A stretch of 64,000 nucleotides of DNA from Paraphaeosphaeria minitans (Eukaryota; Ascomycota; Dothideomycetes; Pleosporales; Didymosphaeriaceae), in assembly GCA_015832175.1 (NCBI GenBank), contig WJXW01000009.1, positions 1,426,001 to 1,490,000 on the forward strand, given 5' to 3'. A program made the translations under genes and the position numbers. The notes beneath the pieces are model-generated. The model did not search any database. It had not been told where the DNA came from and saw only the letters and a list, made by a program, of their open reading frames with translations. This document shows positions 1 through 59,168 of the stretch, one piece after another (positions within the stretch are counted from its first letter, which is position 1; every line of letters starts with the position of its first letter).

Positions 1-2015
1 AGCTAAGAATATCTAAAAATTCTTAGAATTCTATAGATTTAATTAACAATTTATCTAAAATTACGTAAAGGTTATAATACCTTTAATAAATCTTGTAAAG
101 AAGGACGTACCCTTTAAATAGACAAATAAGTGTAAAATATTATTCTAACTCCTTAAAACAGCGTGTATTATAGAACTTATCCTTATTTATTTTAAAAGCA
201 ATAAACTACTACGCTTTAAAACAGACGCTAGCGATCTTACGCTAGGCGCCTACGCTAAATAAAAATATAACAGTAAATAGCACCTAATTACCTATTACTT
301 ATGCAAATTTAATAACGCTAAAACATAATACAATATATATAATAAAGAACTCTACGCTATTATTAAAGCCTTAAAGTACTAGAGGATTTATACGCTTAGT
401 TACTTAATACTAGAAATCTATATAGATTATAAGAACCTTCTAAGGTTCACAATAACAAAAGAACTTACGCTATAATAACAAAGATAGTTACAAACTAAAG
501 GGTAGTATAAGTTTAAAATTATCTATGTAGCTAGGAAAGAAAATAGCAGAGCAGACGCTCTTAGCTAACAAAGTAATCTAGTAGGAGAAAAGGTAAAAAC
601 CTTCTCTATAATTCTTCGCAAAGCTAAAGATAGATCTCTATAGCTAATAGCGGAACTAAATTAACTTTTAGTAATTAACTAAGAAGTTCTAGAACATCTA
701 TAAACTAAGATTATCTAATAATACCACGATAACCCTATGTACAGACACCTAGGCATTATAAAGACAATAGAACTTATCTAAAAGAATTACACCTTTAAAG
801 GAATTAAGGAAGCTATAATAACTTATATCTACAAATATATAGAATGCTAAAGAAATAAACACAGTATATATCTTAAATATAGAGAGATGTAAGCAATTAA
901 AATACTAACAGCACTATAGGAAGATATTACTAGAGATTTTGTTATAGGAATTCTAAACTCTAAGGATCTAACAACAGGAATTAAATACGATAGTATACTA
1001 GTAGTAGTCTACTAACTAACTAAGTATATTAAGCTTATTCTATGCCTTAAAGAAATAACGGCAAAGGAACTCGCTTTTCTTATTCTAGACTAACTAATTA
1101 GACACTACAGAATCCTAAAAATAATTATTAGCAATAGAGACAAGCTCTTTATATTAAATTATTAGACAACGCTTATAGCACTGCTTAGAACGAAACAAAA
1201 ACTATTAATAGCTTACTATCTATAAATAGACGGACAGATAGAATGTACGAACTAAACTATAGAAACGTACCTACGCATCTACTGTAATAGTTAGAAGAAT
1301 AACTAGGTTTTATTACTACTTATAGCACAGTTAGCCTATAATAACAAAGTATCAGCAGTATTAGAATATACACTATTCTATATAAACTATAGAAGACACC
1401 TACATCTCTTTAATTAATAATTTCCTACGATAATTAAAGTAAAAGAAGCTATAGATATAGTAGAAAATATAAAGAAAATACACTAATAACTCTAAGAAAA
1501 TCTTAAGAAAGCTTAGCAGCAATTAATTTTATACTAAAATTAAAAACAAAAAATGGCACCTTAGCTAAAGAAGGGGGATAAAGCATATCTACTTACAAAG
1601 AACCTTTAAACTTAGAAGAAAAAACATAAGAAACTAAATTATATTAAGGTTAGACTATTTTACATTTCTAAGCAAATATTACTAGTAAACTATAAGTTAG
1701 AACTACCGCTAGATGTAAAGATACACCTAGTATTCTACGTATTACTACTAGAACTAGCAGACCCTAATACACTAGTTGAAACTACCTTCTACTACTAGAC
1801 TAAGGAAGAAAATAAATTTAAGGTTAAAAGAATTCTAGAATACAATTAGTATAATAATATGTACCTTATTAAGTAGACAGGTTACCTATATAGTAAAAAC
1901 ACCTAGGAACTAAAAAACAATCTAGGAAACTGTTAGCAAAAGATTAAGGAATTCTACTAGAAATAACTAGGACGCACCTAGGAATTACCACTAGTATAAG
2001 GGCTAGCCTATAAAA
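1..2015 (+). pseudogene. pol: G1 pol remnant: RT end, RNase H, integrase, chromodomain
   Basis: Conceptual translation with TAG/TAA read as Gln gives the end of the reverse transcriptase (1-180), then RNase H with the catalytic-type KTDASDLTLGAY segment near 220-255. The integrase follows: zinc-domain His region HDNPMYRHLG near 724-752, core near 980-1300 with the TNQTIETYLRI stretch. A basic tail with a VKRILEYNQ motif near 1830 suggests a chromodomain. The protein would belong to the capsid/replication polyprotein of a Ty3/gypsy element. Dozens of nonsense changes, almost all CAG/CAA to TAG/TAA, inactivate it. The frame ends close to the start of the convergent antisense gene. Confidence 0.9.
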
Positions 2016-2019
2016 TAGA

Positions 2020-2538
2020 CTAGTTAATTACCTTAGCGCCTAACAGCGCGTTAGGATTTATTAACGTAGTAGTCTACACTAACTCCTCCTGCGCCTTAAG
2101 CGCTTCTAACTTGTCTATAGTATTTATGCTATAATTAAATAATTCTTGTTCCTTCTAACGTAATTTCTTTTACTAATTACGTAAGCGCGCCATCTTCTCT
2201 TACACCTAATAGGCGCGAAGGAGAGCTGCCTTAGCTAGTTTTTCTTTAATATAGAGCTTTGCCTCCTCTTTAGCCTCTAACTTTTCTAACCTCTCTATTT
2301 TAGCATCTATTTTTAAATAATCTAGTAAAGGGATCTCCTTAGGCTCACACTTCTAGTTTCCTTATTTAATATAGTTAGTACACTAAAAGTGTAAAAAAGA
2401 AAGATAATAAGTATATTTCTTCTTAGTATAGTACAAATAGGTAACTATTATAAAAACGTAGTCTTTCTTAAGATAATTAGCTTAACTGTAGCGATATTAA
2501 ATAGAACAAGATAATAACTTTATAGGTAGTTAACTTAT
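2020..2538 (-). pseudogene. Antisense Zn2Cys6-like gene of G1 copy 1 (variant C)
   Basis: This lies on the strand opposite pol, between the pol end and the polypurine tract. Reading from about 2538 down gives a basic protein. At 2439-2347 the spacing is [C]X2[C]X6[C]X8CX2[C]X7C, where bracketed positions are now Tyr (TAY), one G-to-A step from TGY. The surviving Cys residues are in QCTN and QKCEP. This is the Zn(II)2Cys6 spacing of fungal GAL4-type DNA-binding domains. A long charged segment rich in Lys, Glu, Gln and Leu follows, resembling the dimerisation coiled coil next to such domains. The start is probably ATA from ATG. Function is inferred from the motif only. The sequence differs from the equivalent genes of copies A, B and D. 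Confidence 0.6.
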
Positions 2539-2550
2539 AAGGATATTAAG

Positions 2551-2568
2551 CTTAGAGGGGGAGAATAA
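2551..2568 (+). other. Polypurine tract of G1 copy 1
   Basis: A purine run containing agagggggagaataa lies directly before the LTR, the place where plus-strand DNA synthesis is primed in LTR retrotransposons. It matches, in inverse orientation, the tract inside copies A and B (ttatcccctctct). Confidence 0.8.
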
Positions 2569-3024
2569 TATTAGGATCTAGCTACGTGTAAGTAGTAGGG
2601 CGCGAGCTTATTAGACTACTAGTCTACTAGAGTTAGCTAACTAAGTAGTTAGATAATAGGTTATAGGTCCTAAGGGTCCTAAGGACCGCACAGGCCTCAC
2701 CTATACAGGAACTCTAGGACGCGTAGGACTCGCCCACACAGGACTCTAGGAAATGTGGGACTCTAGGACATATAGGACTCTAGGACATATAGGATTCTAG
2801 GAAGTGTGGGACTACTTAGTATATAGAAACGCGAGAATAAGCTTCTTATACTTATATTTAATTTGTTTATTAATCTATTATTTAGATTCTAGTAGACTAA
2901 ATTATTAACTTATTACACTTTATAAGATACTATTATATTAATAAGACCTTCTACCTTCTGTAAGTACTCCTGCCTAAGAACAAACCTTAACCCTTTAGGA
3001 CTAGCTACCCTCTTGGATTTAACA
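2569..3024 (+). repeat. 3' LTR of G1 copy 1, variant C (456 bp)
   Basis: It begins TATTAGGATC (TG RIPped to TA) and ends GGATTTAACA. The last ~200 bp, from the TATATAG box onward, is the R-U5 shared by all G1 LTRs. The U3 is unlike variants A, B and D and carries a short tandem array. Confidence 0.88.
2705..2815 (+). repeat. Tandem array in variant C U3
   Basis: Imperfect 16-18 bp units of the form GGACTCTAGGA plus a short spacer (acatat, aatgtg, agtgtg) repeat about six times, ending some 10 bp before the TATATAG box. Their position suggests repeated promoter sites; no protein ligand is known from the sequence. Confidence 0.75.
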
Positions 3025-3554: not shown

Positions 3555-3971
3555 TGTTAAATCCAAGAGGGTAGCTAGTCCTAAAGGGTTAAGGTTGGTT
3601 CTTAGGCAGGAGTACTTACAGAAGGTAGAAGGTCTTATTAATACAATAGTATCTTATAAAGTATAACAAGTTAATAATTTGGTCTACTAGAATCCAAACA
3701 ATAGATTAATAAACAGATTAAACACAAGTATAGAGAGTCTATCCTCGCGTTCCTATATACTAAGCAAAGTCCGCTCTATAGAGAGCGCTCTGTAGAGAGC
3801 AGTTACGTGTGTTATACTCTAGTACAGAGCAATTAAGCGCTCTATAGAGAGCAGTTACGTAACTCCTTTGTTTAAGGCGTAGCTGGCATTAAATCCCTGC
3901 TTAATTCTTAGTACGCGCCTACTAGGTACAAAACTAGCTTCCTGCTATTATATAGATTTTAGATCCTAATA
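3555..3971 (-). repeat. 3' LTR of copy B, variant B
   Basis: It runs from TGTTAAATCC to GATCCTAATA on the plus strand. The U3 side (3760-3971) holds inverted GCTCTATAGAGAGC-type repeats. The polypurine tract follows at 3972 (ttatcccctctctt, complement purine-rich). It differs from its partner at 16362 by C-to-T and G-to-A changes, concentrated in U3. Confidence 0.93.
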
Positions 3972-4081: not shown

Positions 4082-4565
4082 ATGCCTAGCAACTCTACTA
4101 TTTAAAAACATTAATTGTATCGCGAGATCTAAGAAGCTAACATTATTATAGAGAACCCTTATATTAATTATAGTTTCAAAGGTTCTATTTACTACGTTAT
4201 GCTAGATTTAGGTTTAAAGTGTTCTAAATATATTCACTTAGGTTGTCTATATATAAACATAAGCTAGTTATTACTAGATAAGACTCGCAAGGAGTATAAG
4301 AAGAAGGTTAAGAAAGATAAGAAGGCGTTATCTCTCCTAATAGTGTAGTTATTATAAAATAAGAAGATACTAGCTTAGGCTAAAGAGCGTGCTTATAAGA
4401 AAATATTGTATCTAGCTGCAGAAATAACTACAAATAGTAAGGACATAAATATAGATACTATTAATTGTCCTACTACTGTAGCGACCGTTAGTTACTCTAT
4501 AGTAATATAGTTAACGCTTAACATAGTAGATACTATAGCGTTAGTACCGTAATCCTCCTAGGTAT
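4082..4565 (+). pseudogene. Antisense Zn2Cys6-like gene of copy B (interrupted)
   Basis: It opens with ATG at 4082, about 110 bp inside the 3' LTR, on the strand opposite gag-pol. At 4160-4254 the spacing [C]X2[C]X6[C]X9CX2[C]X6[C] fits a Zn(II)2Cys6 cluster; bracketed positions are Tyr codons TAT/TAC, each one G-to-A change from Cys. A Lys-rich segment (KEYKKKVKKDKK) follows, then Gln/Leu/Ala-rich sequence that could form a coiled coil. The coding frame is cut at 4565 by insertion of copy A. The protein sequence outside the Cys pattern is unlike the genes of A and F, as is the neighbouring U3. A regulatory role is inferred from the domain. Confidence 0.62.
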
Positions 4566-4976
4566 TATTAAATCCAAGAGGGTAGCTAGTCCTAGAGGGT
4601 TAAGGTTGGTTCTCAGGCAGGAGTACTTACAGAAGGTGGAAGGTCTTGTTAATATAATAGTATTTTACAAAGTGTAATAAGTTAACAATTTAGTCTGCTA
4701 GAATCTAAACGATAGATTAATAAACAGATTAAACACGAGTATAGAGAGTCTATCCTCGCGTTCCTATATAATAGGGCTACTCTATTACTTAGTGTTACTA
4801 AGTAACTAAGTATATTACGTAACCTACTCTACTACTTAGTGCTACTAAGTAACTAAGCATATTACGTGACCTAATCTAAGTTACTTGGCGTCTCTTTATT
4901 ACGTTTATAACCCTATTACTATTCTATTATACCTTTATAAGCGCCTAAGTCCTATATTATTATCTAGTACGTAACA
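4566..4976 (-). repeat. 3' LTR of copy A, variant A (411 bp)
   Basis: Plus-strand ends are TATTAAATCC and GTACGTAACA. The U3 contains two tandem ~47-bp units with TTACGTRAC. It is heavily C-to-T changed compared with the right LTR and with the solo LTR at 56611. Confidence 0.95.
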
Positions 4977-4990
4977 TTATCCCCTCTCTT
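4977..4990 (-). other. Polypurine tract of copy A
   Basis: ttatcccctctctt directly follows the LTR. Its complement, aagagaggggataa, is the polypurine primer site for a minus-strand element and fixes orientation independently of pol. Confidence 0.88.
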
Positions 4991-5013
4991 TCTATTCTTT
5001 GTCCTAAAGAATT

Positions 5014-5532
5014 ATGCCTGCTAACTATAACTCTACAAAGTGTTGTTATAACTTTATCTTTACTATTAAAAACTATAGAGTAGTTATAGTGTTAAAGTGC
5101 TCTTTTTACAAGTCCCACTTCTACGTTTATAAAGTCTATATTAGCTTAGGGAAGTGTAGTAAGTGTTAGAAATAAGGCTTAAAGTGTAATATAGCTATTA
5201 CTAGAAATAAGTTTTTATAGTTAATTACTAAGAAGAAGAAGTTAGAGGCGCAAATATTAGAGGCGCGAAAGGAATAAAATATAGTGTTTAAAGCCCTACG
5301 CGTAGTGTACGTAAAAAAGGATTAGTTAGTAAAATAGTTAGCGTAGAATAAGAAGTATACTAGTAAGGTTATTGTAGTAGAGAGTGCTGCTCTAGCAGAG
5401 CTAGAGTTAGAGGAGGATCTAGCTTATCCTACTTGGCCTACTAGTCTGGCTAAATTTAGTATGTCTATATAGTTAGCGATAGACGACCTGCCTCCTAAGT
5501 TCTAGGATAATTCTTTAGCATTACTATCTTAA
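5014..5532 (+). pseudogene. Antisense Zn2Cys6-like gene of copy A
   Basis: ATG at 5014 is 37 bp inside the LTR, so U3 read outward is the likely promoter. The frame runs about 172 residues to TAA at 5532, just before the pol end, convergent with pol. At 5098-5187 the pattern is CX2[C]X6[C]X8CX2CX6C; the bracketed residues are Tyr (TAC, TAT). This is Zn(II)2Cys6 spacing, with KCSKCQ and GLKCN clearly preserved. Residues about 70-140 (KKKKLEAQILEARKEQ and onward) are Lys/Glu/Leu/Gln-rich and likely coiled coil; the C-terminus is acidic (ELELEEDL). Three Gln-to-stop changes break it. Copy F carries a close relative; copies B, C and D carry divergent ones. A DNA-binding role is inferred. Confidence 0.66.
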
Positions 5533-5539
5533 GTAGGTC

Positions 5540-8500
5540 TGTTAATAGAATTCTTTAATCTTTTATTAACAGTTTCTTAGGTAGTTCTCTAGTTCCTAAG
5601 TGTTTTTGCTGTGTAGGTAACCTTTCTACTTAATAAGGTACGCGTTGCTATACTAATTATATTCTAGAATTCTTTTAACCTCAAATTTATTTTCTTTCTT
5701 AGTTCTATAGTAGAAGGCAGTTCCAACTAGTATATTAGGGTCTACTAGTTCCAGTAGTAATATGTAGAATACTAGGTGTATCTTTGCATCTAGCGGTAGT
5801 TCTAACTTATAGTTTACTTGTAATATTTGCTTAGAAATATAAAATAGTCTAACCTTAATATAATCTAGTTTCTTATGTTTTTTCTTCTAAGTTTAAAGGT
5901 TCTTTGTAAGTAGATATACTTTATCCCCCTTCTTTAGCTAAGGTGCTATTTTTTGTTTTTAGTTTTAGTATAAAATTAATTGCTACTAAGCTTTCTTAAG
6001 ATTCTCTTAGAGTTATTAGTGTATTTTCTTTATATTTTCTACTATATCTATAGCTTCTTTTGCTTTAATTGTCGTAGGAAATTTTTAGTTAAAGAGATGT
6101 GGGTGTCTTCTATAGTTTGTATAGAACAGTGTATGTCCTAATACTACTAATACTTTGTTATTATAGGCCAACTATACTATAAGTAGTAATAAAACCTAGT
6201 TATTCTTCTAACTGTTGCAGTAGATGCGTAGGTACATTTCTATAGTTTGGTTTATACGTTTTGTCTGTCTGTCTATTTATAGATAGTAAGCTATTAATAG
6301 CTTTTGTTTCGTTCTAAGCAGTGCTATAAGCGTTATCTAATAATTTAACGTAAAGAGCTTGTCTCTGTTACTAATAATTATTTTTAGAATTCTATAGTAT
6401 CTAATTAGTTAGTCCAGAATAAAAAAAGCAAGTTCCTTTACTATTATTCTTTTAAGACATAGAATAAGCTTAACATACTTAGTTAGTTAGCAGACTATTA
6501 CTAGTATACTATTATATTTAATTCCCGTTATTGGATCCTTAGAGTTTAGAATTTCTATAACAAAATCTATAGTGATGTCTTCTTATAGTGCTGTTAGTAT
6601 TCTAATTGCTTACATCTCTCTATATTTAAGATATATACTGTGTTTGTTTCTTTAGTATTCTACACATTTATAGGTGTAAGTTATTATAGCTTCTTTAATT
6701 CCTTTAAAGGTGTAATTCCTTTAGATAAGTTCTATTATCTTTGTAATGCCTAGGTGTCTGTACATAGGGTTATCGTAGTATTATTAGATAATCTTAGTCT
6801 GTAGATGTTCTAGAACTTCTTAGTTAATTACTAAAAGTTAATTTAGTTCCACTATTAGCTCTAGAGATCTATCTTTAGCTTTATAAAGGATTACAAAGAA
6901 GGTTTTTACCTTTTCTCCTACTAGATTACTTTATTAGCTAAGAGCGTCTGCTCTAGCATTTTCTTTTCTAGCTATATAGATAATTTTAAACTTATACTAC
7001 TTAGTGGTTTATAACTATCTTTATTATTATAGCGTAAGTTCTTTTATTATCGTGAACCTTAGAAGGTTCTTATAATCTATATAGATTTCTAGCGTTAAGC
7101 AACTAAGTGTATAAATCCTCTAGTGCTTTAAGGCTTTAATAATAGTGTAGAGTTCTTTGTTATATATATTATATTATGTTTTGGCGTTATTAAATTTGCA
7201 TAAGTAATAGGTAATTAAGTGCTATTTACTATTACGTTCTTATTTAGCGTAGGCGCCTAGTGTAAGATCGCTAGTGTCTATTTTAAAGCGCAGTAGTTTA
7301 TCGCTTCTAAAATAAATAAGAATAGGTTCTATAATACATACTATCTTAAGGAGTTAAAATAACATTCTGCACTTATTTATCTATTTAAAGGGTACGTCCT
7401 TCTTTAAAAGATTTATTAAAGGTATTGTAACCTTTACGTAATCTTGGATGAATTGTTAATTAAATCTATAGAATCCTAAGAATTCTTAGATGTTCTTAGC
7501 TGTCTTTAGTATTAGCTAGTTCTTAATGTATTTAACTTTACTTAGTGCCATCTTAATTCCTTCTATAGTAATAATGTGTTCTAGGAATTTAAGTTATTTA
7601 ACGTTAAACTTATATTTCTTAAGTTTAATATAAAGGCATACTTTGTCTAGTGCTTCTAGTACTATCTATACATGCTTAGTGTAGTCTGATTCGTTTTTAG
7701 AAAAGATAAGGATATTATCTATATACGCAATAATAAATATGTTTAGATATTTGTAGAGTACATTGTTAATGAGTGCTATAAAAGCTACTAGTGCGTTTAT
7801 AAGTCTAAAAGGTATAATCTTATATTTAAATAATCTGTAGCGTGATTAAAACGCTATTTTCTATTCTTTACCTTTCTTAATTTATATAAGGTGGTAACTG
7901 TCTCTTAGATCTATTATTGTGAATATCTTGGCTTAAGATAGTTAATCTCGTAACTCTATAATATTTAGTAGTAGATATTGGTTCTTTATTATTATATTAT
8001 TAAGTTGTTAGTAGTTAACGTATAGTCTGTCTAATCTATCCTTTTTCTTAATAAACATAAAAGGGCTTACTACTAGTAACTTTAATAGTTATATATATCC
8101 TTTCTTAAGGTTTATCTTAATAAAATCACGTTCTTTAAGGAGTTCTTCTCCTATCTTACTGTATAGTAGTCTAAAGGGTAGTGTCTTCCCTTCTTCTAGG
8201 TCTATCGTAAGATCCTAGGGTTAATATTCTAGTAGGTTTGCTTTTCCTTCCTTTTCTATAAATATATATGTCTATTTCCTGTACTCTCTTAGTAAGGTAA
8301 AAAGTATACTATTGTCCTCCTTCTTGCGCTTCTTAACCTAGTAGTTCCTACTAGCGTCTACTAAGGTGTGCTTCCGTTTTTTAACTGTCTATTATAGTAT
8401 CATGTTATTAATAACTCCCTTATCTACTATTATTCTTAGTTAATACGTAGGCTTTGCTTATAATACATAATTGTAGCATTTAAATAATATTTTCTTTGTA

Positions 8501-10736
8501 CCCTAGTTAATCTACAGGTTATGTATTGTTAACTAAAGTAATCCTAAGACTAACTTATGCTTAGATCCTAGTAAGACATCTAAGGTAAGTTCCTTACTAT
8601 GTCCTTAGACTATTATTATAGTAGTAACCTCCTAGTATATTTAAGGTGTCTTAGGTATTAGGGATCTATTCGCGACATAGATAATGTAAGGTACTTTTTT
8701 CTCTAATATTATAAGTCCTACTTGTCTTGCTGTCTAATAAGATATAAAGTTCCTTTCTACTCCTAAGTCTATAAGAGCTTAAGCCTATATTCCTTTAAGC
8801 TGTACTAGTAGCTTAACTAATACTATACTTACTATAGTATTTAATTTAATAAAGGCGTTTTCTTATCTAAGTTTAGGCCTAAAAAAGACATCTATTTGTA
8901 TAGGTTGTAGTTAAGTTCTAGTGCCTAGTATACATTTCTAAGCATCTGCTTCTATTATTATTCTTAAGTACGTGGCTTATATAGATTGTCTTCTTCTTCT
9001 TCCCGCAAGGATATTCTTCTGTTTTTCCTCTTGTAGTCTTTACTATTTCTATATACTAGTTAAATTAGTAGCTCTATTATTACTTCTTACGTAGGGCAGT
9101 TTACAAAGCTATCTAAACATTTAGCTATATAGTAGTATTTATAGTCTTAGTTTAGACACGTATACTAGTATAGTTATATACAGTTTCTATTAATAAGCAT
9201 ATTACAGCATTTATTGCCCTTTAGTATAAGATAATAAAAGTATTTTACTTATTATTTATCCTAGAGGTGTTCGTCGCAAGCTATAATAGGGTAGTCTGTT
9301 TATATCTATCTATAGCGCAGTTTCCTTCTAGATTATATCTTATTCTCTTCTTTCTCTATCTTGTGTTATGCGTATATTAGTTCTTCGCAATGCGTCCACA
9401 TACAGAATTAGTATATAGGATTTTAATAGTCTAAGTAGTACTTTAGTACGTAGTCTAACTTCTTATTTTTGTAGGGTTGCATTCCTTTTAGTGTCTAGTA
9501 GGGTCCTATGTAGTCCTAAATATTTAGTTTGTACTTAGGTAACATAGGGTTATCTTCTTCCTACCTACTTTATAGGTAAAAAGTAGGAGATCTTAGTATC
9601 TCTTCTACGTTTTCTACGTTATGGTATACATTAGAGTTGTCTTCTAGATCTTTGTATAGTTGTAAGTTAGGTAAATCTAATTACTTACTTTATTCTAGTG
9701 TAACGCGTTAGTAACTAAATAGCGTTATAATAACTTCCTATTCCTTATTAGGTTCTTAGTCCTTAATAGTTAGTATATTTAACTTAGTTTAATAGACTTT
9801 GTTCTTTAATCTATAGTTCCTAGCTATATAGCCTAGTTTACCACATATAAAGCATTTATAGGTCTTAGTTATTAATTGTTAACTTCTATTAGAGACGTGT
9901 TTATTAGGCTGCTTAGGGCCTATTCTTCCTCCTTTTCCTTTACCTAAGTAGTTAAACTAGATATCTTCTATTAGTTCGTATCTCTAGTAGTTCCCTAGCT
10001 GTTACTTTTAGACAATTCTAACAGGGTTCTTATAAACTATTTTTACTAGTTATCTAAAGCTTATTGCCCTAGGGTTTTAGTAGAGCTCCTATTACAGTGA
10101 AAACTATTCTTTATTAATTCTAATAGTTTCTTTATATAGTTCTTTAAGGTTAGCAATTTGTGCACTACTACGTAAGAGTTCCTTATGTAGTTTCTATTTA
10201 AGTCCTTATTTATATATGTCCTAAAGAGATTTATCGTCCTAGTTAAGCTGCACAGCGTATCTACGAAACTTAGTTATATACTTAGCTGCTAATTATTTCT
10301 AAGTTATAGTCTAAATCTTTGCTTTCGTAATAGAGTCCTTATTAATAATCCTAAAGAGTTGTTTAAGGCATTTCTTAAAGTTATTATAATTCTTAATAAT
10401 AGTAACTGTATTAGCGTGCTTATTTACGTAATTATTGTTATTATTATTGTAGTCTATTCCTAGGTACTTTTTAAGGTAGAAATAGATCTATAATCCTGTA
10501 TCTCCTCGCATATATATTGCTCCGAAGATAACCTTCTTTTTGTCTTTAAGAGGTTTATCTAAGTTAAAGAAATAGAGGTCTAACTAGAGAATCTAGACAT
10601 TAGTTTAAAATTGTTTACTAAAGTAGAGATTAGGTTTATGCGCCTTACTACTATCCTTTATAGGAGTAATCTTAGCGTCACCTAAAGCTGTAGAAGAGGT
10701 AGGAGTTTGTAAAGTACTTATATTAAGGGTGTTTAA
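5540..10736 (-). pseudogene. gag-pol: G1 gag-pol polyprotein remnant, copy A
   Basis: Read on the minus strand from 10736. Gag spans roughly 10736-9500, with a CCHC knuckle KCFICGKLGY near 9865-9835 (His now Tyr). The aspartic protease motif AQALIDLGVERNF lies near 8790. Reverse transcriptase spans 8450-7560, with YIDN (from YIDD) in IIAYIDNILIF near 7735-7700. RNase H follows at 7330-6960, integrase at 6860-5900, and a chromodomain-like tail (VKRILE-type) near 5680. Gag codons begin 2 bp after the LTR, so there is almost no leader. Abundant TAG/TAA at Gln positions and Asp-to-Asn changes show RIP. Domain order is that of Ty3/gypsy chromoviruses. Confidence 0.9.
10729..10736 (-). promoter_or_regulatory. 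Candidate self-priming primer-binding site of copy A
   Basis: In element orientation the LTR end ACA is followed by TC and then TTAAACAC. This 8-mer is the exact complement of GTGTTTAA at the predicted RNA 5' end (10909-10902). Tf1/sushi-type elements prime from their own RNA 5' end. The same octamer pair occurs in copies B and D. Confidence 0.5.
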
Positions 10737-10738
10737 GA

Positions 10739-11150
10739 TGTTAAATCTAAGAGGGTAGCTAGTCCTAAAGGGTTAAGGTTAGTTCTTAGGTAGGAGTACT
10801 TACAGAAGGTGGAAAGTCTTATTAATATAATAGTATCTTGCAAAGTGTAATGAGTTAACAATTTAGTCTACTAGAATCTAAACAATAGATTAATAAATAG
10901 ATTAAACACAAGTATAGAGGTCCATCCTTATGTACTTATATAATAGGGCTGCTCTATTACTTAGTGTTACTAAGCAACTAAGCACATTACGTAACTTACT
11001 CTACTACTTAGTGCCACTAAGTAACTAAGCACATTACGTAACCTAATCTAAGTTGCTTAGCGTCTCTTTTGTTACGTTTGTAACCCTGTCACTATCCTAT
11101 CACACCTTTATAAGCGCCCGAGTTCCCACATTGTTATCTGGTACGTAATA
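10739..11150 (-). repeat. 5' LTR of copy A, variant A (412 bp)
   Basis: It starts TGTTAAATC and ends GTACGTAATA, followed by target copy ggtat. Its outer, U3 end (11040-11150) keeps many C/G bases that are T/A in the 3' LTR. Confidence 0.95.
10902..10942 (-). promoter_or_regulatory. TATA box and predicted transcript start of G1 LTR
   Basis: TATATA (complement of 10937-10942) lies about 30 bp upstream of GTGTTTAA (complement of 10902-10909). The sequence shared by all G1 LTRs begins at this TATA box; everything upstream varies by LTR type. The start site is inferred from spacing. Confidence 0.5.
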
Positions 11151-11171
11151 GGTATGTTCGTGTTTCTAATA

Positions 11172-14100
11172 GAATTCCTTAATCTTTTGCTAACAGTTTC
11201 CTAAATTATTTTTTAGTTCCTAGGTGTTTTCGCTATGTAGGTAACCTTTCCACTTAATAAGGTACATATTATTATACTAATTGTATTCTAGAATTCTTTT
11301 AACCTCAAATTTATTTTCTTCTTTAGTCTAGTAGTAGAAGGTGGTTTTAACTAGTGTATTAGGATCTGCTAGTTCTAGTAGTGATACGTAGAATACTAGG
11401 TGTATTTTTACATCTGGCGGTAGTTCTAACTTATAGTTTACTAGTAATATTTGCTTAGAAATGTAAAATAGTCTAACCTTAATATAATCTAGTTTCTTAT
11501 ATTTCTTCTTCTAAGTTTAAAGGTTCTTTGTAAGTAGATATGCTTTATCCTCCTTCTTTAGCTAAGGTGCTATTTTTTGTTTTTAGTTTTAGTATAAAAT
11601 TAATTGCTGCTAAGCTTTCTTAAGATTCTCTTAGAGTTGTTAGTGTATTTTCTTTATATTTTCTACTATATCTATAGCTTCTTTTGCTTTAATTGTCGTA
11701 GGAAATTATTAATTAAAAAGATATAGGTGTCTTCTGTAGTTTACATAGAATAGTGTATGTCCTAATACTACTAATACTTTGTTATTATAGGCCAACTGTG
11801 CTATAGGTAGTAATAAAACCTAGTTATTCTTCTAACTGTTGCAGTAGATGCGTAGGTACGTTTCTATAGTTTGGTTCGTACGTTCTGTCTATCTGTCTGT
11901 TTATAAATAGTAAGCTGTTAATAGCTTTCTTTTCGTTCTAAGTAGGGCTATAAGCGTTGTCTAATAATTTAACATAAAGAGCTTATCTCTATCGCTAATA
12001 ATTATTTTTAGGATTCTATAGTGTCTAATTAGTTAGTCTAGGATAAGAAAAGCGAGTTCCTTTACTATTATCCTTTTAAGGCATAGAATAAGCTTAACAT
12101 ACTTAGTTAGTTAGTAGACTATTACTAGTATACTATTATATTTAATTCTTGTTGTTAGATCCTTAGAGTTTAGAATTCCTATAATAAAATCTATAGCAAT
12201 ATCTTCCTATAGTGCTATTAGTATTTTAATTACTTACATCTCTCTATATTTAAGATATATGCTATATTTATTTCTTTAGTATTTTGCACATTTATAGATA
12301 TAAGTTATTATAGCTTCTTTAATTCCTTTAAAGGTGTAATTCCTTTAGATAAGTTCTATTGTCTTTATAATACCTAGGTGTCTGTACATAGGGTTATTAT
12401 AGTATTATTAGATAATCTCAGTCTGTAGATGTTCCAGAACTTCTTAGTTAATTACTAAAAGTTAATTTAGTTCTACTATTAGTTCTAGAGATCTATCTTT
12501 AGCCTTACAAAGGATTGCGGAGAAGGTTTTTACTTTTCCTCCTACTAGATTACTTTGTTAGCTAAGAGCGTCTACTCTACTATTTTCTTTCCTAGCTATA
12601 TAGATAATTTTAAACTTGTATTACCCTATAGTTTATAACTATCTTTATTATTATAGCGTAAGTTCTTTTATTGTCGTAAACCTTAGAAGGTTCTTATAAT
12701 CTGTATAGATTTCTAGCGTTAAGTAACTAAGCGCGTAAATCCTCTAGTGCTTTAAGGCTTTAATAATAGCGTAGAGTTCTTTATTATATACGTTATATTG
12801 TGTTTTAGCGTTATTAAATTTGCATAAGTAATAGGTAATTAAGTGCTATTTGCTATTACGTTCTTATTTAGCGTAGGCGCCTAGCGTAAGATCGCTAGTG
12901 TCTATTTTAAAGCGCAGTAGTTTATCACTTCTAAAATAAATAAAGATAGGTTCTATAATATATGCTATCTTAAAGAGTTGGAATAACATTCTGCACTTAT
13001 TTATCTATTTAAAGGGTACGTCCTTTTTTGTAAAATTTATTAAAGGTATTATAACCTTTACGTAATTTTAGATAAATTATTAGTTAAATCTACAGAATCT
13101 TAAGAATTCTTAGATATTCTTAGCTGTCTTTAGTATTAGCTAGTTCTTAATGCATTTAACTTTACTTAGTGCTATCTCAATTCTTTCTATAGTAATAATG
13201 TGTCCTAGGAATTTAAGTTATTTAACGTTAAACTTATATTTCTTAAGTTTAATATAAAGGTATGCTTTGTCTAGTGCTTTTAGTACTGTCTATACGTGCT
13301 TAGTGTAGTCTGATTTATTTTTAGAAAAGACAAGGATATTATCTATATATATAATAACAAATATGTGTAGATGTTCATAGAATACGTTGTTAATAAGTGC
13401 TAAAAAAGCTGCTAGTGCATTTATAAGTCTAAAAGGCATAACCTTATATTTAAATAGTCTATAGCGTGATTAAAACGCTGTTTTTTATTCTTTACTTTTC
13501 TTAATTTATATAAGGTGGTAACCGTCTTTTAGATCTATTATTGTGAATATCTTAGCTTAAGATAGTTAATCTCGTAACTCTATAATATTTAGTAGTAGAT
13601 ATTAGTTCTTTATTATTATATTGTTAAGTTATTAGTAGTTAACGCATAGTCTGTCTAATCTATCCTTTTTCTTAATAAATATAAAAGGGCTTACTACTAG
13701 TAATTTTAATAGTTATATATATCCTTTCTTAAAATTTGTCTTAATAAAATTACGTTCTTTAAGGAGTTCTTTTCCTATCTTACTATATAGTAGTCTAAAG
13801 GGTAGTGTCTTCCCTTCTTCTAGGTCTATCGTAAGATCCTAGGGTTAATATTCTAGTAGGTTTGCTTTTCCTTCCTTCTCCGTAAATATATGTGTTTATT
13901 TCCTATACTCTCTTCGTAAGGTAAGGGGTGTACTATCGTCCTCCTTCTTACACTTCTTAATCTAGTGGTTCCTACCAGCGTCTGCTAAAGTATACTTCTG
14001 TTTTTTAACTATCTGTCGCGGTATTATATTATTAATAACTCCCTTATCTACTATTATTTTTAGTTAATACATAAGCTTTGCTTATAATACATAATTATAG

Positions 14101-16360
14101 CGTTTAAATAATATTTTCTTCGTACCCTAGTTAATCTATAGGTTGTGTATTATTAACTAAAGTAATCCTAAGACTAACTTATACTTAGATCTTAGTAAGA
14201 CATCTAAGGTAAGTTCCTCTTTATGTTCTTAGACTATTATTGTAGTAGTAACCTCCTAGTATATCTAAGGTGTCTTAGGCATTAGGGATCTATTTGCGAT
14301 ATAGATAATATAGGGTACTTCTTTCTCTAATATTATAAGTCCTACTTATCTTACTATCTAATAAGATATAAAGTTCCTTTCTACTCCTAAGTCTATAAGA
14401 GCTTAAGCCTATATTCCTTTAAGCTATACTAGTAGCTTAACTAATGCTATACTTACTGTAGTATTTAATTTAATAAAGGCGTTTTCTTATCTAAGTTTAG
14501 GCCTAAAAAAAAATCTATTCATGTAGGTTGTAATTAAGTTCTAGTGCCTAGTATGTATTTCTAAGTATCTACTTCTATTGTTATTCTTAAGTACGTAGCT
14601 TATGTAGATTGTCTTCTTCTTTTTTCTATAAGAATATTCCTCTATTTTTCCTCCTGTAGTCTTTACTGTTCCTATATACTAGTTAAATTAGTAGTTCTAT
14701 TATTACTTCTTACGTAGGGTAGTTTGTAAAGCTGTCCAAATGTTTAGCTATATAATAGTATTTATAGTCTTAGTTTAGACACGTATACTAGTATAGTTAT
14801 ATACAGTCTCTATTAATAAGTATATTATAGTATTTATTACCCTTTAGCGTAAGGTAAAGAAAGTATTTTACTTATTATTTATCCTAGAGGTGTTTATCGC
14901 AAGCTGTGATAGGGCAGTCTATCTATATCTATCTACAGCGTAGTTTCCTTCTAGGTTATTTCTTATTCTTCTTTTTTTCTGCCTTATATTATGCGTATGT
15001 TAGTTCTTCGCAATACGTCCACATATAGAATTAGTGTGTAGGATTTTAGTGGTCTAGATAGTACTTTAGTACGTAGTCTAACTTCTTATTTTTATAGACT
15101 TATATTCCTTTTAGTGCCTAGTAAGGTTCTATATAGTCCTAAACATTTAGTTTATACTTAGGTGACATAGGGTTGTCTTCTTCCCGCCTACTTTATAGGT
15201 AAGGAGTAGGAGATCTTAGTATCTCTTCTACGTCTTCTACGTTATAGTATACGTTAGAGTTGTCTTCTAGATCTTTGTATAATTATAAGTTAAGTAAATC
15301 TAATTGCTTACTTTATTCTAGTGTAACGCGTTAGTAACTAAATAGCGTTATAATAACTTCCTATTCCTTATTAAGTTTTTAGTCCTTAATAGTTAGTATA
15401 TTTAACTTAGTTTAATAGACTTTGTTCTTTAATCTACAGTGCCTAGCTATATAGCCTAGTTTACTACATGTAAAGCATTTACAGGTCTTAGTTATTAGTT
15501 ATTAACTTCTATTAGAGACACGTTTATTAGGCTGCTTAGGGCCTATCCTTCCTCCTTTTCTTTTACTTAAGTAGTTAAACTAGACATCTTCTATTAGTTT
15601 ATATCTTTAGTAGTTCCTTAGCTGTTACTTTTAGACAATTCTAATAGGGCTCTTATAAACTACTTTTACTAGTTATCTAAAGCTTATCTCCCTAGGGTTT
15701 TAGTAGAGCTCTTATTGTAATAAAAACTATTCTCTATTAATCCTAATAGTTCCTTTATATAGTTCCTTAAGGTTAGTGATTTGCGCACTACTACGTAAGA
15801 GTTTCTTACGTAGTTTCTATTTAAGTCCTTATTTATACATATCCTAGAGAGATTCATTATCCTAGTTAAGTTATATAGTATATCTACGAAACTTAGCTAT
15901 GTACTTAGCTACTAATCATTTCTAAGTTATAGTCTAAATCTTTGCCTTTGTAATAGAGTCTTTATTAGCAATCCTAAAGAGTTATTTAAGGCATTTCTTA
16001 AAGTTATTATAGTCCTTAATAATGTTAACTATATTAGTGTACTTATTTACGTAATCATCGTTATCGTTGTTATAGTCTATTCCTAGGTACTTTTTGAGGT
16101 AGGGATGGATCTATAATCCTATATTTCTTTACATATATGTTGCTGCAAAGATAACCTTCTTCTTATCTTTAAAGAGTTTGTCCAAGTTAAAGAAGTAGAG
16201 GTCTAACTAAAGAATCTAGACGTTAGTTTAAAATTATTCGCTAAAGTAGACATTAGGTTTATACGCCTTACTACTATCCTTTATAGGAGTAATCTTAGCA
16301 GCACCTAAAGCTATAGAAAAGGTAAAAGTTTGTAAAGTACTTATATTAAGGGTGTTTAAG
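11172..16360 (-). pseudogene. gag-pol: G1 gag-pol polyprotein remnant, copy B
   Basis: It resumes just after copy A's right target duplication and runs to 2 bp before the 5' LTR. Same order as copy A: gag (about 16360-15100) with a knuckle near 15480, protease near 14410, reverse transcriptase 14080-13180, RNase H 12960-12590, integrase 12490-11530, chromodomain-like tail near 11310. It aligns with copy A by eye almost throughout; differences are mostly transitions of RIP type. Not translatable. Confidence 0.88.
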
Positions 16361-16361
16361 A

Positions 16362-16778
16362 TGTTAAATCTAAAAGGGTAGCTAGTCCTAAAGGGTCAAG
16401 ATTAGTTCTTAGGCAGGAGTACTTATAGAAAGTAGAAGGTCTTATTAATATAATAGTATCTTATAAAGTATAATAAGTTAACAATTTAGTCTACTAGAAT
16501 CTAAACAATAGATTAATAAACAGATTAAATATAAGTATAGAGAGTCTATCCTCGCGTTCCTATATACTAAGCAAAGTCCGCTCTGTGGGGAGCGCTCTAT
16601 AGAGAGCGGTCACGTGTGTTATGCTCTAGTACAGAGCAATTAAGCGCTCTATAGAGAGCAGTCACGTAACTCCTTTGTTCGAGGCGTAGCCGGCATTAAA
16701 TTCCCGCTCGATCCTTGCTACGCGCCCACTAGGTACAAAACTGGCTTCCCGCCATTATGTGGATTTCAGATCCTAATA
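16362..16778 (-). repeat. 5' LTR of copy B, variant B (417 bp)
   Basis: It runs TGTTAAATCT to GATCCTAATA, then target copy actag. The U3 (16565-16778) is well preserved, with palindromic GCTCTATAGAGAGC repeats and two GTCACGT motifs. R-U5 (16362-16560) is strongly RIPped. Confidence 0.94.
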
Positions 16779-37139: not shown

Positions 37140-37550
37140 TGTTAAATCCAAGAGGGTAGCTAGTCCTAAAGGGTTAAGGTTAGTTCTTAGGTAGGAGTAC
37201 TTATAGAAGGTGGAAGATCTTATTAATATAATAGTATCTTACGAAGTGTAATAAGTTAATAATTTAGTCTACTAGAATCTAAACGATAGATTAATAAATA
37301 GATTAAATATAAGTATAGAGAGCCTATCCTCGCGTCCCTATTTACTTTAAGCAATTAGTGGACTAATTGCTCTAATTAAACTAATTAAGCACTAATTAGT
37401 TACTTAGTATATTAAGTGCTTAGTCTAATTAGTTATTTTAGCGCTCTAATCACACTAATTAGGTTATATAACCTCTTGTGCTGTGCCGCTTAAACAACGT
37501 ATATAGATACATATAAAGATCCTAGGAGGCCTAGCCTTTAGATTTTAACA
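37140..37550 (-). repeat. 3' LTR of copy D, variant D (411 bp)
   Basis: TGTTAAATCC to GATTTTAACA. The U3 carries CTAATTA-rich inverted repeats (attagtggactaat). The polypurine tract (complement of ttatctccctcc) follows at 37551-37562. R-U5 is shared with other G1 LTRs. Confidence 0.94.
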
Positions 37551-37659
37551 TTATCTCCCTCCTTACTAGGATTTGTCCCTAAATTATGTAACTGTGTTTT
37601 GTGTCTAGTTATAACTAGAGCTTATCCTACGTTATAAGTAGCGTTAGTTTACTTATATT

Positions 37660-38141
37660 ATACCTAAATAACTTTCTAAGTCTAGCACTACCTATCGCTA
37701 TTACCTAACTAATTTTATTAACTCCTTTAGCGAAGTTATAGTTAAGAAATACTTAATGTGTATAAAATATAATCATGTTTATAAGGTTTACGTTTAGTCT
37801 AGAAAATATAGAGAATATATTTATTAAAGTTAATATTGCAATGTGCGTGTTTTAGAGTCTAAGTTTAAGCGTTTATTAGCAGAGAAAAAGAAATTACGTG
37901 TGTAAATAAAAAGGTTAAGAGAAATATAAGAGGCTGCGTTTAAAGCCTATAAGAAGGCGTTAGAGAAATTATAGGTTATATATATACGCAAAAATTAGTT
38001 ACGTTAGTAAATAGACTTACTAAATAAGCGTACTAAGAATATAATAGTAGTGAAGGAGAAAAATATTAAGAAGGCTAAATTTTATAAGGCTATTAATCTA
38101 GTAGTTAATAAAACTCCTTTAGGTCCCTTCTTGTCCCCTAT
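37660..38141 (+). pseudogene. Antisense Zn2Cys6-like gene of copy D, main part
   Basis: The start is ATA at 37660 (probably ATG before RIP), 110 bp inside the LTR. At 37759-37839 the spacing CX2[C]X6[C]X5[C]X2[C]X6C exactly fits Zn(II)2Cys6. First and last Cys survive (MCIK, YCNV); the four bracketed positions are TAT or TAC Tyr codons. A strongly charged segment follows (KRLLAEKKKLRVQIKRLRE), very likely coiled coil, as in dimeric GAL4-type factors. The frame is cut at 38141 by element E and continues in frame at 47831-47925. It lies opposite to gag-pol and ends against it. The sequence is unlike the genes of A, B and C apart from the cluster. Confidence 0.7.
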
Positions 38142-47830: not shown

Positions 47831-47925
47831 AACATAGAGCGCTTTTAAGGATTTCCTATTAGAATTCTAGAATAATCTAGTACCTTTACCGTCTTAGGTA
47901 CGAATGTCTTTATACTGTGTAAGTT
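47831..47925 (+). pseudogene. Antisense gene of copy D, 3' end
   Basis: Continues the frame interrupted at 38141; joining the flanks after removing E and one target copy keeps it in phase. It ends near the pol 3' border. Confidence 0.5.
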
Positions 47926-47929
47926 ATTA

Positions 47930-50900
47930 ATAGAATTCTTTAATCTTCTATTAATAGTTTTCTAAGTAGTTCTCTAGTTCCTAAGTGTTTTCGCTGTGTA
48001 GATAACCTTTCCACTTAATAAAGTACACGTTACTATACTAATTATATTCTAGAATTCTTTTAACCTTAAATTCGTTTTCTTCCTTAGTTCTATAGTAGAA
48101 GGCGGTTCTAACTAGTGTATTAGGATCTGCTAGTTCTAGTAGTAATACGTAGAATACTAGGTGTATCTTTATATCTAGCGGTAGTTCTAACTTATAGTTT
48201 ACTAGTAATATTTGCTTAGAAATGTAAAATAGTCTAATCTTAATATAATCTAGTTTCTTGTGTTTTTTTTTCTAAGTTTAAAAGTTCTTTATAAGTAGAT
48301 ATACTTTATCCCCCTTCTTTAGCTAGAGTGCTATTTTTTATTTTTAGTTTTAGTATAAAATTAATTACTGCTAAGCTTTCTTAAAATTCTTTTAGAGTTA
48401 TTAGTGTATTTTCTTTATATTTTCTACTATATCTATAGCTTCTTTTGCTTTAATTATTGTAGGAACTTATTAATTAAAGAGATATAGGTGTCTTCTATAG
48501 TTTATATAGAATAGTGTATATCCTAATACTACTAATACTTTGTTATTATAGGCTATCTATGGTATAGGTAGTAATAAAACTTAGTTATTCTTCTAACTAT
48601 TATAGTAGATGCGTAGGTACATTTCTATAGTTTAGTTTGCTTATTCTGTCTATCCGTCTATTTATAGATAGTAAGCTGTTAATAGCTTTTATTTTGTTCT
48701 AAGTAGGGCTATAAGCGTTATTTAGTAATTTAACGTAAAGAGCTTATCTCTATTGCTAATAATTATTTTTAGAATTCTGTAATATCTAATTAGTTAGTCT
48801 AGGATAAAAAAAGTAAGTTCTTTTGCCGTTATTTTTTTAAGGCATAGAATAAGCTTAATATATTTAGTTAGTTAGTAGACTACTACTAGTATACTATTGT
48901 ATTTAATTCCTGTTATTAGATCTCTAGAGTTTAGAATTCCTATAACAAAGTCTATAGCGATGTCTTCCTATAGTGCTATTAGTATTCTAATTGCTTACAT
49001 CTCTCTATACTTAAGATATATACTATGTTTATTTCTTTAGTATTCTATACATTTATAGATATAAGTTATTACAGCTTCCTTAATTCCTTTAAAAGTGTAG
49101 TTCCTTTAGATAAGTTTTATTATCTTTGTAATGCCTAGGTGTCTGTATATAGGGTTATCGTAGTATTATTAGATAATCTTAGTCTATAGATGTTCTAGAA
49201 CTTCTTAGTTAATTACTAAAAGTTAATTTAGTTCTACTATTAGTTCTAGAAATCTATCTTTAGCTTTGCAAAGGATTGTAAAGAAGGTTTTTACCTTTTC
49301 TCCTACTAGATTACTTTGTTAGCTAAGAGCGTCTACTCTGCTATTTTCTTTTCTAGCTATATAGATAATTTTAAACTTATACTGCCTAGTAGTCTACAAC
49401 TATCTTTGTTATTGTGGCGTAAGTTCTTTTATTATTATAAACTTTAGAGGGTTTTTATAATCTATGTAGATTTCTAGCGTTAAGTAGCTAAGTGTGTAAA
49501 TCCTCTAGTACTTTAAGGCTTTAATAATAGCGTAGAGTTCTTTATTATGTATATTATATTATGTTTTGGCGTTATTAAATTTACATAAGTTATAGGCAAT
49601 TAGGTGCTATTTACTATTACGTTTTTATTTAGCGCAGGCGTCTAGCGTAAGATTACTAGTGTCTATTTTAAAGCGTAGTGGTTTATCGCTTCTAAAATAA
49701 ATAAGGATAGGTTCTATAATACATACTGTCTTAAGGAGTTAGAATAACCTTCTATATTTATTTATTTATTTAAAGGGTATATCCTTCTTTGTAAGATTTG
49801 TTAAAGGTATTATAACTTTTACGTAATTTTAGATAAAATATTAGTTGAATTTATAGAATCCTAAAAATTCTTAGATGTTCTTAGCTATCTTTAGTATAAG
49901 CTAGTTCTTAATGTATTTAATTTTACTTAGTGCTATCTTAATTCCTTCTATAGTGATAATATGTTCTAGGAATTTAAGTTATTTAACATTAAACTTATAT
50001 TTCTTAAGTTTAATGTAAAGGCATACTTTATCTAGTGCTTCTAGTACTATCTATACGTGCTTAGTGTGGTCCAATTCGTTTTTAGAAAAGACGAGGATAT
50101 TATCTATATACGCAATAATAAATATGTCTAGATGTTTATAGAGTATGTTATTAATAAGTGCTATAAAAGCTACTAGTGCATTTGTAAGCCTAAATAGCAT
50201 AACTTTATATTTAAATAGTCTGTAGCGTAATTAAAACGCTATTTTCTATTCTTTACTCTTTTTAATTTATATAAGGTAGTAACTGTCTCTTAGATCTATT
50301 ATTATAAATATCTTAGCTTAAGATAGTTAATCTTATAGCTCTACAATATTTAGTAGTAGATATTAGTTCTTTATTATTATATTGTTAAGTTATTAGTAGT
50401 TAACGTATAGTCTGTCTAATCTATCCTTTTTTTTAATAAATATAAAAGGGCTTACTGCTAGTAACTTTAATAGTTATATATATTCTTTCTTAAGGTTTGT
50501 CTTAATAAAATTACGTTCTTTAAGGAGTTCTTCTCTTATCTTACTATATAGTAGTCTAAAGAGTGGCGTCTTCTCTTCTTCTAGGTCTATTATAAGATCC
50601 TAGGCTTAATATTCTAGTAGGTTTGCTTTTCCTTCCTTTTCTGTAAATATATGTGTCTATTTCCTATACTTTCTTAGTAAAGTAAAGGGTGTGCTATTAT
50701 TCTCCTTCTTACGCTTTTTAACCTAGTAGTTCCTGCTAGCGTCTACTAAGGTGTATTTCTATTTTTTAACAGTCTATTATAGTATTATATTATTAATAAC
50801 TCCCTTATCTACTATTATTTTTAGTTAATGCTTAGGCTTTGCTTATAATATATAATTATAGCGTTTAAATAAAATTTTCTTTATACCCTAGTTAATCTGC

Positions 50901-53119: not shown

Positions 53120-53120
53120 A

Positions 53121-53531
53121 TATTAAATCTAAAAGAGTAGCTAGTCCTAAAGAGTTAAGGTTAGTTCTTAGGTAGGAGTACTTATAGAAGGTAGAAAGTC
53201 TTGTTAATATAATAGTATCTTACAAAGTGTAATAAGTTAACAATTTAGTCTACTAGAATCTAAACAATAGATTAATAAACAGATAAAATATAAGTATAGA
53301 GAGCCTATCCTCGCGTCCCTATATACTTCGAGCGATTAGTGGACTAATCGCTCTAATTAAACTAATTAAGCACTAATTAGTTACTTAGTATATTAAGTGC
53401 TTAGTCTAATTAGTTGTCTTGGCGCTCTAATCACACCAATTACGTTACGTGACCTCTTGTGCTGTGCCGCTTAAACAACGCATGTGGATACATATAAAGA
53501 TCCTGGGAGGCCTAGCCTTTAGATCTTAATA
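53121..53531 (-). repeat. 5' LTR of copy D, variant D (411 bp)
   Basis: TATTAAATCT to GATCTTAATA, then tttac. The U3 half (53330-53531) is much less RIPped than in the 3' LTR; it includes gttacgtgacc and cgattagtggactaatcg. Confidence 0.94.
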
Positions 53532-53536
53532 TTTAC

Positions 53537-58649: not shown

Positions 58650-59168
58650 TTTTACCTAGAAAGGCAAAGTTACAGAGTTATTCTAGAACTCTAAGGAAAG
58701 ATTATTTATTACTTACTAAATAGACGTACTAAGCTCTATAAAACCTATAGGCTAAGTAGGCTAAACTAGATTCTCTTCTAACTCTATTAGCGTAGCACTT
58801 TCTACTATAATTACCTCTCTAGCGCGCTTTTTATTCTGCGCTAACTGTTTTAATAACTACTCCTTTTTTATACACACTATACGCAGCGCCTTAAATATAG
58901 TATTCTATTTCTTACACGCCTCTAATATTTAGGCCTCTAATTTCTTCTTTTTAGACACTAACTATAAAAATTTATTTTAAGTAATAGCTACGTTACACTT
59001 TAATCTTTATTTCTAACACTTACTACACTTCCCTAAGCTAATATAGACTTTATATATATAAGAATACGCCTTATAGAAAAAACACTTAGATACTATAATA
59101 GTACTATAATTCTTAATAGTAAAGATAAAGTTATAATAATGTTTTATACTATTATAATTAGTAGGTAT
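58650..59168 (-). pseudogene. Antisense Zn2Cys6-like gene of copy F
   Basis: Minus-strand frame starting at ATA (from ATG) at 59168, about 37 bp inside the 3' LTR. At 59084-58995 the pattern CX2[C]X6[C]X8CX2CX6C repeats that of copy A, with KCSKCQ and RLKCN preserved and two Tyr substitutions. A Lys/Glu-rich segment like KKKKLEAQILEA follows. It is a close relative of the copy A gene, and both elements carry variant A LTRs. Broken by Gln-type stops. Function inferred. Confidence 0.64.

Follow-up and report, generated by a model that had tools for sequence, protein, structure and literature searches.

Why would a retrotransposon carry, on the strand opposite to its own gag-pol, a gene for what looks like a fungal transcription factor? 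The question is raised by a stretch of 64,000 nucleotides (the window) on contig WJXW01000009.1 of the mycoparasite Paraphaeosphaeria minitans, in which Gypsy elements have been decayed by repeat-induced point mutation (RIP). A reading of the letters made without database searches (the sequence-only reading) had placed five antisense frames between pol and the 3' long terminal repeat (LTR), at 2020-2538, 4082-4565, 5014-5532, 37660-38141 and 58650-59168 (here types b, c, a, d and e, respectively), and had proposed that they encode binuclear-cluster proteins in which RIP has turned Cys into Tyr. All five frames are present. Our analysis supports the view that the elements are RIP-mutated Ty3/Gypsy chromoviruses bearing an antisense gene that encodes a Zn(II)2Cys6-like protein, and it shows that this gene is exchanged between elements together with the adjoining U3 of the LTR; the exchange goes beyond what had been claimed and is the more novel part. 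We suggest, with a probability of roughly 0.6 and judging the pairing of gene and U3 from sequence, a model in which the element encodes its own regulator and a cognate promoter array that travel as one exchangeable cassette.

One element of the window was delimited by self-comparison as the LTRs 4566-4976 and 10739-11148 with the internal region between them. Frames for reverse transcriptase and chromodomain place its gag-pol on the minus strand, and the type-a gene lies, as had been claimed, on the plus strand between the end of pol (5543) and the LTR 4566-4976. The genome (47.45 Mb, 30 contigs) was searched for copies, and four pieces of an un-RIPed element, L069, gave in Pfam a Retrotrans_gag domain with zinc knuckle, aspartic protease, reverse transcriptase, RNase H, integrase and chromodomain, the domain order between LTRs that defines Ty3/Gypsy chromoviruses. 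In L069 the antisense gene directly follows pol on the opposite strand, the open frames overlapping by four bases with stop codons included; in the un-RIPed type-b copy (L088, on C19) pol and gene stand tail to tail with few bases between them. The gene adjoins pol in antisense orientation in 64 of 66 usable pol ends, a set in which some places are counted twice and two window rows duplicate loci already included; the remaining two are window elements without the gene. Its site between pol and the 3' LTR, its many copies per family and its orientation, verified in the window, L069 and L088, are those of antisense open reading frames (aORFs).

The antisense gene is real. A stop-free, un-RIPed copy encodes a protein 100% identical to PMIN01_12119 (P0001) of P. 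minitans, and among the best 150 of 338 candidate matches to P0001 a single one is open, the other 149 being interrupted by stops. Frame length is kept in 28 distinct translations (30 loci), with stops at mostly fixed columns and a frameshift in L012 as the exception. Relative to the un-RIPed gene, C has become T in 58 mutated copies (30 + 28 loci) at 71% of CpA and 57% of CpG but at only 15% of CpC and 19% of CpT; Trp, Gln or Arg codons account for 586 of their 588 stops, and all six cluster columns hold Cys or Tyr and nothing else in 58 of 58. The un-RIPed copies thereby bear out the reading of Tyr as RIPed Cys for types a, b and e; taken alone it is unsafe, Tyr45 of type b having been an Arg codon. 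For the other types, the gene matches scored were the best 150 of 208 (b), the best 150 of 288 (d) and 141 (c). As a separate observation, L031, L032 and L033 (C2, at about 96, 101 and 133 kb) carry an identical RIPed antisense frame, with one identical translation, and were probably duplicated after RIP.

Relatives elsewhere, a search for which had been proposed, were found as homologous proteins. Eight mutated copies retrieved 4 proteins, and a profile of these 4 retrieved 140 proteins at E <= 0.01, the best 120 of which were listed; organisms named are P. minitans itself, Sporormia fimetaria, Bathelium mastoideum, Aureobasidium melanogenum and Elsinoe australis. The pattern CX2CX6CX8CX2CX6-7C fits 114 of the 120 homologs listed (111 with X8/X6 and 3 with X8/X7; P0006, P0016, P0099, P0104, P0109 and P0116 miss it), which places them, and type b, within the Zn2Cys6 spacing range CX2CX6CX5-12CX2CX6-8C. 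For P0001, P0093 and P0113 the UniProt name starts with Zn(2)-C6 fungal-type. The longest contig is 5.9-7.9 kb for 28 of the 120, about the size of one element, which is suggestive only; a pattern scan of viral contigs for the relatives' DNA gave 146 matches, of which 0 were confirmed. An antisense frame arising by chance or as a RIP artefact is ruled out by the un-RIPed copies and the homologs. The central claim of the sequence-only reading, a Gypsy element with an antisense Zn(II)2Cys6-like gene, thus stands on un-RIPed copies in the same genome, homologs elsewhere and predicted folds, and no de-RIPed consensus was needed. It has been raised for plant antisense frames, in the part of PMC7264820 available, that the antisense transcript itself might matter through double-stranded RNA or silencing, the coding frame being incidental; given the conservation of Cys spacing and protein among the homologs, we accord this almost no weight.

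The five frames differ in family. A hidden Markov model (HMM) of 118 homologs, built without P0001 and P0002, matches in the window solely types a (E 5e-26), d and e (E values in the table), the next-best match having E 4.4, and this first-family profile missed the type-b frame on the minus strand. Type b is matched by an HMM of 13 of the 14 homologs of a second family, and its un-RIPed copy encodes a protein of 186 residues with all six Cys (CX2CX6CX8CX2CX7C). By sequence, types a, d and e form one family and type b a second. The two profiles align over 182 columns with 99.5% probability (E 9e-23), while by BLASTP the un-RIPed a and b proteins share 28% identity over 32 residues only and their pol ends 77% over 304. 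For type c a Cys cluster is likely from the alignment of its nine copies, in which the first cluster position is Tyr in 9 of 9 and the other five are Cys in 1 to 9 copies; Tyr or Cys at columns 52 and 55 may also come from Arg codons. No open type-c frame occurs among 141 genome matches, and the family HMMs reach the type-c copies at just E 0.03. Four of the five proposed binuclear-cluster frames are therefore upheld, and the one at 4082-4565 stays unconfirmed.

What kind of protein does the gene encode? The models point to about 170-190 residues with an N-terminal helix, a Zn2Cys6-like, predicted DNA-binding domain and a long coiled coil. In AlphaFold predictions for type a (66 sequences; mean predicted local distance difference test, pLDDT, 80.7) and type b (14 sequences; 82.2), an N-terminal helix is accompanied by a compact cluster domain (pLDDT about 80-93), and a single long helix takes up 60-70 residues. 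In Foldseek searches of the PDB, 9 of 9 type-a matches were Zn2Cys6 DNA-binding domains (Pho7, GAL4, LAC9, HAP1, PUT3), with weak E values of 0.56-7.3; type b gave five matches, the first three being Pho7 (two) and Leu3 and the other two ribosomal, with a best E of 0.28 at probability 0.91. Like GAL4, PPR1, LEU3 and PHO7, the element proteins combine the Cys spacing with a tentatively similar predicted fold over 30-40 residues and a coiled coil after the cluster; they differ in lying below the Zn_clus cut-off, in being very short and in being encoded by a retrotransposon. The usual Zn2Cys6 regulators have a large middle region. At the C terminus of family a, conservation extends to an aromatic motif built around two Trp, which might, as a guess, be an activation surface.

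Three results stand against these fold matches. The HMM search against Zn_clus (PF00172) that had been proposed as a check fell short, no protein scanned passing the curated cut-off taken as the detection threshold: judged by E value, Zn_clus is seen at E <= 0.1 in 2 of 14 proteins of family b (best E 0.0044) and 2 of 66 of family a (best 0.06), P0001-P0004 have no match at E <= 1, and the L088 protein scores 14.9 bits against a cut-off of 21. Moreover, the open copy is not among the 144 matches of a Zn_clus scan of the host genome, and the type-a profile aligned with eight host domains no better than shuffles that keep the Cys. Sequence searches of the PDB gave no significant match (none at E <= 1 for query A2), LAC9 (E 0.29 and 1.0) and RSC30 (0.61) being mixed with unrelated rows, and the VIA-align lists, headed by long-helix proteins, added little. 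Because the Zn_clus cut-off is not passed, "Zn2Cys6-like" is the safe name. A nucleic-acid-binding accessory of the particle or of integration that does not act on a promoter would be in keeping with small retroelement zinc proteins, which are often RNA-binding; we regard it as improbable, as gag has a CCHC knuckle already, the predicted fold is like that of Zn2Cys6 DNA-binding domains, and expression antisense to gag-pol would be odd for a particle protein.

The adjoining U3 is exchanged with the gene. Elements were compared by transversions because RIP makes transitions only. The mean pol-end distance is 0.004 within type a, 0.010 within type b and 0.009 between a and b (range 0-0.041), and the mean R-U5 distance, taken from the same set of pol-end rows, is 0.005 within a and 0.006 between a and b; a type-d and a type-c element, one of each, differ in their pol ends from type a of the window by 0.005 and 0.006. 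Along the alignment of a with b, R-U5 has 0-1 transversions per 60 nt, a jump to 11-26 occurs near 4770, random-like values of 11-26 persist throughout U3 and the gene, and the count falls to 3 in block 5526 and to 0-1 from 5586 on. For types c and d, resemblance to a breaks off at this left border too and returns at about 5520-5543. A single backbone thus occurs with at least four different combinations of gene and U3, or cassettes. Conversely, one b cassette sits on two pol lineages that are 7-8% apart, the second backbone being seen in one un-RIPed locus: L088 differs from nine b loci by 0.003 (0.002-0.005) in the gene, 0.018 in U3 and 0.083 (0.064-0.091) in the adjoining pol, and by 0.074 in pol over 12 rows of the pol-end set and 0.011 in R-U5 (the R-U5 means of the locus-by-locus comparison were excluded, as was the mean pol distance between L069 and the e loci, misplaced or truncated neighbours giving ranges to 0.3). 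The cassette is limited by the end of pol on one side and by the TATA box and R on the other, and backbones and cassettes have been recombined. The break in L088 lies at or near the pol stop, yet L088:1981-2160, within pol, again has 0-1 transversions per 60 nt to the window b element; this island in an otherwise divergent pol may be conserved sequence or a further exchange. The last dozen pol codons after the chromodomain differ between L069 and L088 and seem to be part of the cassette.

Searching by gene similarity gave 72 genes with a neighbouring LTR, and in 70 of these gene type equals adjacent U3 type; for the two mismatches, L039 (an LTR with an insertion) and L060, the U3 match is weak, at 47 and 37 bits. 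In the window elements without the gene (11149-16778 and 47832-53533), tail region and 5' LTR are still of the same type, c and d, and L069 is a mosaic, its 5' LTR having a U3 of type d and its 3' LTR one of type a/e. Co-divergence by descent was rejected as the sole cause of the agreement, the pol and R-U5 flanks not diverging alongside. Frequent ongoing exchange is likewise unsupported: for 10 of 11 b rows the nearest pols are b rows only, and for 4 of 40 a rows they include non-a. Since pols mostly sort with their own cassette, a few founding events fit better. Two structural details of the un-RIPed loci stand apart: an insert of about 1.1 kb in the 3' LTR of L069 (6228-7363) is flanked on both sides by a short GAAGGTATGATGA repeat and has an ATTG microsatellite at one end, and at L088:1-304 and 669-1147 a type-d-like LTR lies near the type-b LTR, AT-rich sequence separating the two, as in nested or recombined elements.

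What does the exchanged U3 contain? In un-RIPed form, three U3 types each have an array of half-sites of their own immediately before the TATA box: the a/e U3 has a CACGTG box and two 47-bp units in which GCTC/GAGC blocks are spaced by 6-8 nt, the b U3 has GGGAC/T blocks with a spacing that mostly alternates between 8 and 9 nt, and the d U3 has paired TGATC/TGAGC blocks at a distance of 8-9 nt. Half-sites are mostly 6-9 nt apart within blocks, and the array ends about 10-15 nt before the TATA box. The a/e, b and d U3s contain 58, 88 and 38 repeated 6-mer pairs, where shuffling gives means of 13.6, 17.1 and 10.0 (0 of 1000 shuffles in each case), and control stretches (two R-U5, two pol, two gene) have no excess (89-636 of 1000 shuffles). 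The leading 6-mers, with their counts for the U3s in this order, are CTGAGC (5, 0 and 2), TGGGAC (0, 8 and 0) and CTGATC (0, 0 and 6). In these three types the related a and d proteins occur with related half-sites and the distant b protein with an unrelated one, an indication of correspondence between protein and array.

Two known systems bear on such arrays, the Copia element Tnt1 and the VANC proteins of VANDALs, plant DNA transposons. The main rival to a pairing of regulator and promoter is that gene and U3 are merely linked and co-copied in reverse transcription, the protein being unrelated to U3 and the arrays being sites for host factors. Geometry alone predicts co-transfer without pairing, the CACGTG boxes of the type-a and type-d U3s could be host sites, and Tnt1 has a sharply variable U3 in an otherwise conserved element, a "modular evolution" confined to U3, for which the part of the paper available mentions neither an antisense gene nor a self-encoded DNA-binding protein (PMC1838419). 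This explanation nevertheless leaves unaccounted for the half-site parallel and the complete replacement of the gene while pol differs by <1% on average, and we consider it unlikely. Less likely again is a sequence-specific anti-silencing factor that binds the tandem motifs of its own family and counters chromatin silencing rather than driving the promoter. VANC offers the precedent, being element-encoded and sequence-specific, with targets that often form tandem repeats, vary among related elements and differ among related VANCs, an evolutionary pattern like that of the fungal arrays; it is a different protein that causes loss of DNA methylation, and cassette exchange is not mentioned in the part of the paper available (PMC5735166). 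The fungal arrays end at the TATA box, which is a promoter position. VANC is not known to be related in sequence to the antisense proteins.

In our model of a self-encoded regulator and its promoter array, the protein would be encoded by an antisense transcript that begins within the 3' U3, the edge of which lies about 35-40 nt from the ATG; the protein would dimerise via its coiled coil, bind the half-sites of its own U3 and so regulate the LTR promoter; activation is slightly favoured because the aromatic C-terminus is conserved. Minus-strand transfer and template switching are established retroviral biology. Exchange could take place during reverse transcription, in which, after minus-strand transfer at R, U3 and the gene would be copied first; one template switch near the end of pol would then yield an element with the gene and both U3s from the other parent, regulator and operator moving jointly. 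The location of the gene would thus explain its exchange as a unit. We speculate, rather tentatively, that each antisense protein recognises its own U3 array only, a self-recognition module resembling heteroimmunity in which an exchange founds a subfamily no longer subject to its siblings' regulation or silencing, so that several such subfamilies could coexist on one backbone in one genome. In lambdoid phages, repressor and operators of the immunity region are swapped as a block between otherwise similar genomes; this is an analogy only. If the pairing is true, the retrotransposon would have its own swappable regulatory circuit, with a route to escape regulation by siblings, and could supply short Zn2Cys6-like proteins whose specificities are unusual. 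The block exchange of gene and U3 provides a natural experiment with matched and mismatched pairs.

Both plants and fungi are known to have elements with an antisense gene in the interval from pol to the 3' LTR. In Boty-like Gypsy elements of Botrytis and Sclerotinia the antisense gene is brtn (Zhao 2011, as cited in PMC8365987, PMC7264820 and PMC4227169); Boty, too, is a fungal chromodomain Gypsy element (PMC4227169), and a Monilinia transcript is similar to BRTN (PMC5987419). The citing passages state neither a function nor a zinc cluster, and brtn may or may not be a homolog. Plant aORFs (Grande gene23, RIRE2, Retand TRP28) share the antisense orientation and the site, and the accessible text of PMC7264820 and PMC11963269 calls the function of such genes unknown; TRP28 is thought to be DNA-binding (PMC11963269), and tandem repeats lie nearby in about half of Retand elements. 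These plant proteins have another domain, and exchange of gene and U3 is not mentioned in the accessible text. In the open-licence literature, with subscription papers such as Zhao 2011 outside its scope, we recognised no antisense Zn2Cys6-like retrotransposon gene and no report of an antisense gene exchanged together with U3; the main text of a survey of fungal LTR elements (PMC3248453) lacks the words "antisense", "zinc" and "transcription factor". The novelty that had been claimed for an antisense binuclear-cluster gene therefore holds within this literature, while a fungal antisense gene at this site, brtn, was known already. In the present case the gene is predicted to encode a DNA-binding regulator, with the adjoining U3 array as its named candidate target.

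Table 1. Coordinates of element parts, antisense genes and U3 types in the window.
Feature	Position	Strand	Evidence or remark
Pol end, type-b element, backbone as type a	1..1968	+	89.9-91.4% to pols 47922-49886 and 11139-13125
Antisense gene type b, second family	1990..2538	-	HMM 1990-2511, E 4e-50; un-RIPed L088:1148-1705
3' LTR, type-b U3, outer start approximate	2540..3024	+	17-bp array at 2740-2803; un-RIPed form in L088
3' LTR, type-c U3	3555..3971	-	
Type-c antisense frame, cut off by LTR at 4566	4082..4565	+	candidate Cys cluster
3' LTR, type-a element	4566..4976	-	self-comparison; similarity drops sharply near 4770
R-U5 part, common to all types	4566..4773		
Type-specific U3	4774..4976		
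47-bp tandem array of half-sites, type-a U3, RIPed	4777..4878	.	Tandem Repeats Finder; un-RIPed form in L069
Antisense gene type a, RIPed, with stops	5014..5532	+	Zn2Cys6-like domain, coiled coil, C-terminal aromatic motif (predicted)
gag-pol, type-a element, RIPed, chromodomain at end	5543..10738	-	frames; domains from un-RIPed copy
5' LTR, type-a element, type-a U3	10739..11148	-	88.8% to 4568-4974
Type-c element internal region, antisense gene gone save tail region	11149..16361	-	L090 vs 11149-11827, 93.8%; flanking LTR type
5' LTR, type-c U3	16362..16778	-	90.6% to 3555-3971
3' LTR, type-d U3	37140..37552	-	
Antisense gene type d, same family as a	37660..38141	+	HMM E 5e-35
Type-d element internal region with gene-d tail region	47832..53122	-	L089 vs 47832-48478, 88.6%
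5' LTR, type-d U3	53123..53533	-	92.2% to 37142-37552
Antisense gene type e, diverged relative of a	58650..59168	-	HMM E 2e-24; 77% to gene a
3' LTR, type-e U3	59214..59613	+	

The surroundings of these elements are AT-rich and filled with repeats. GC content is 24-38% across positions 1-60000 and 49-55% across 60001-64000, where the jump to about 50% GC and longer open frames mark the border of this stretch. At 16777-26126 lies another repeat, in two inverted copies with arms of about 4.08 kb (89% identity) and a spacer of about 1.2 kb. Finally, a 74-bp tandem pair detected by Tandem Repeats Finder occurs in four copies (42841-42998, 45684-45841, 53676-53833 and 58329-58486), which belong to a repeat family dispersed among the Gypsy elements.

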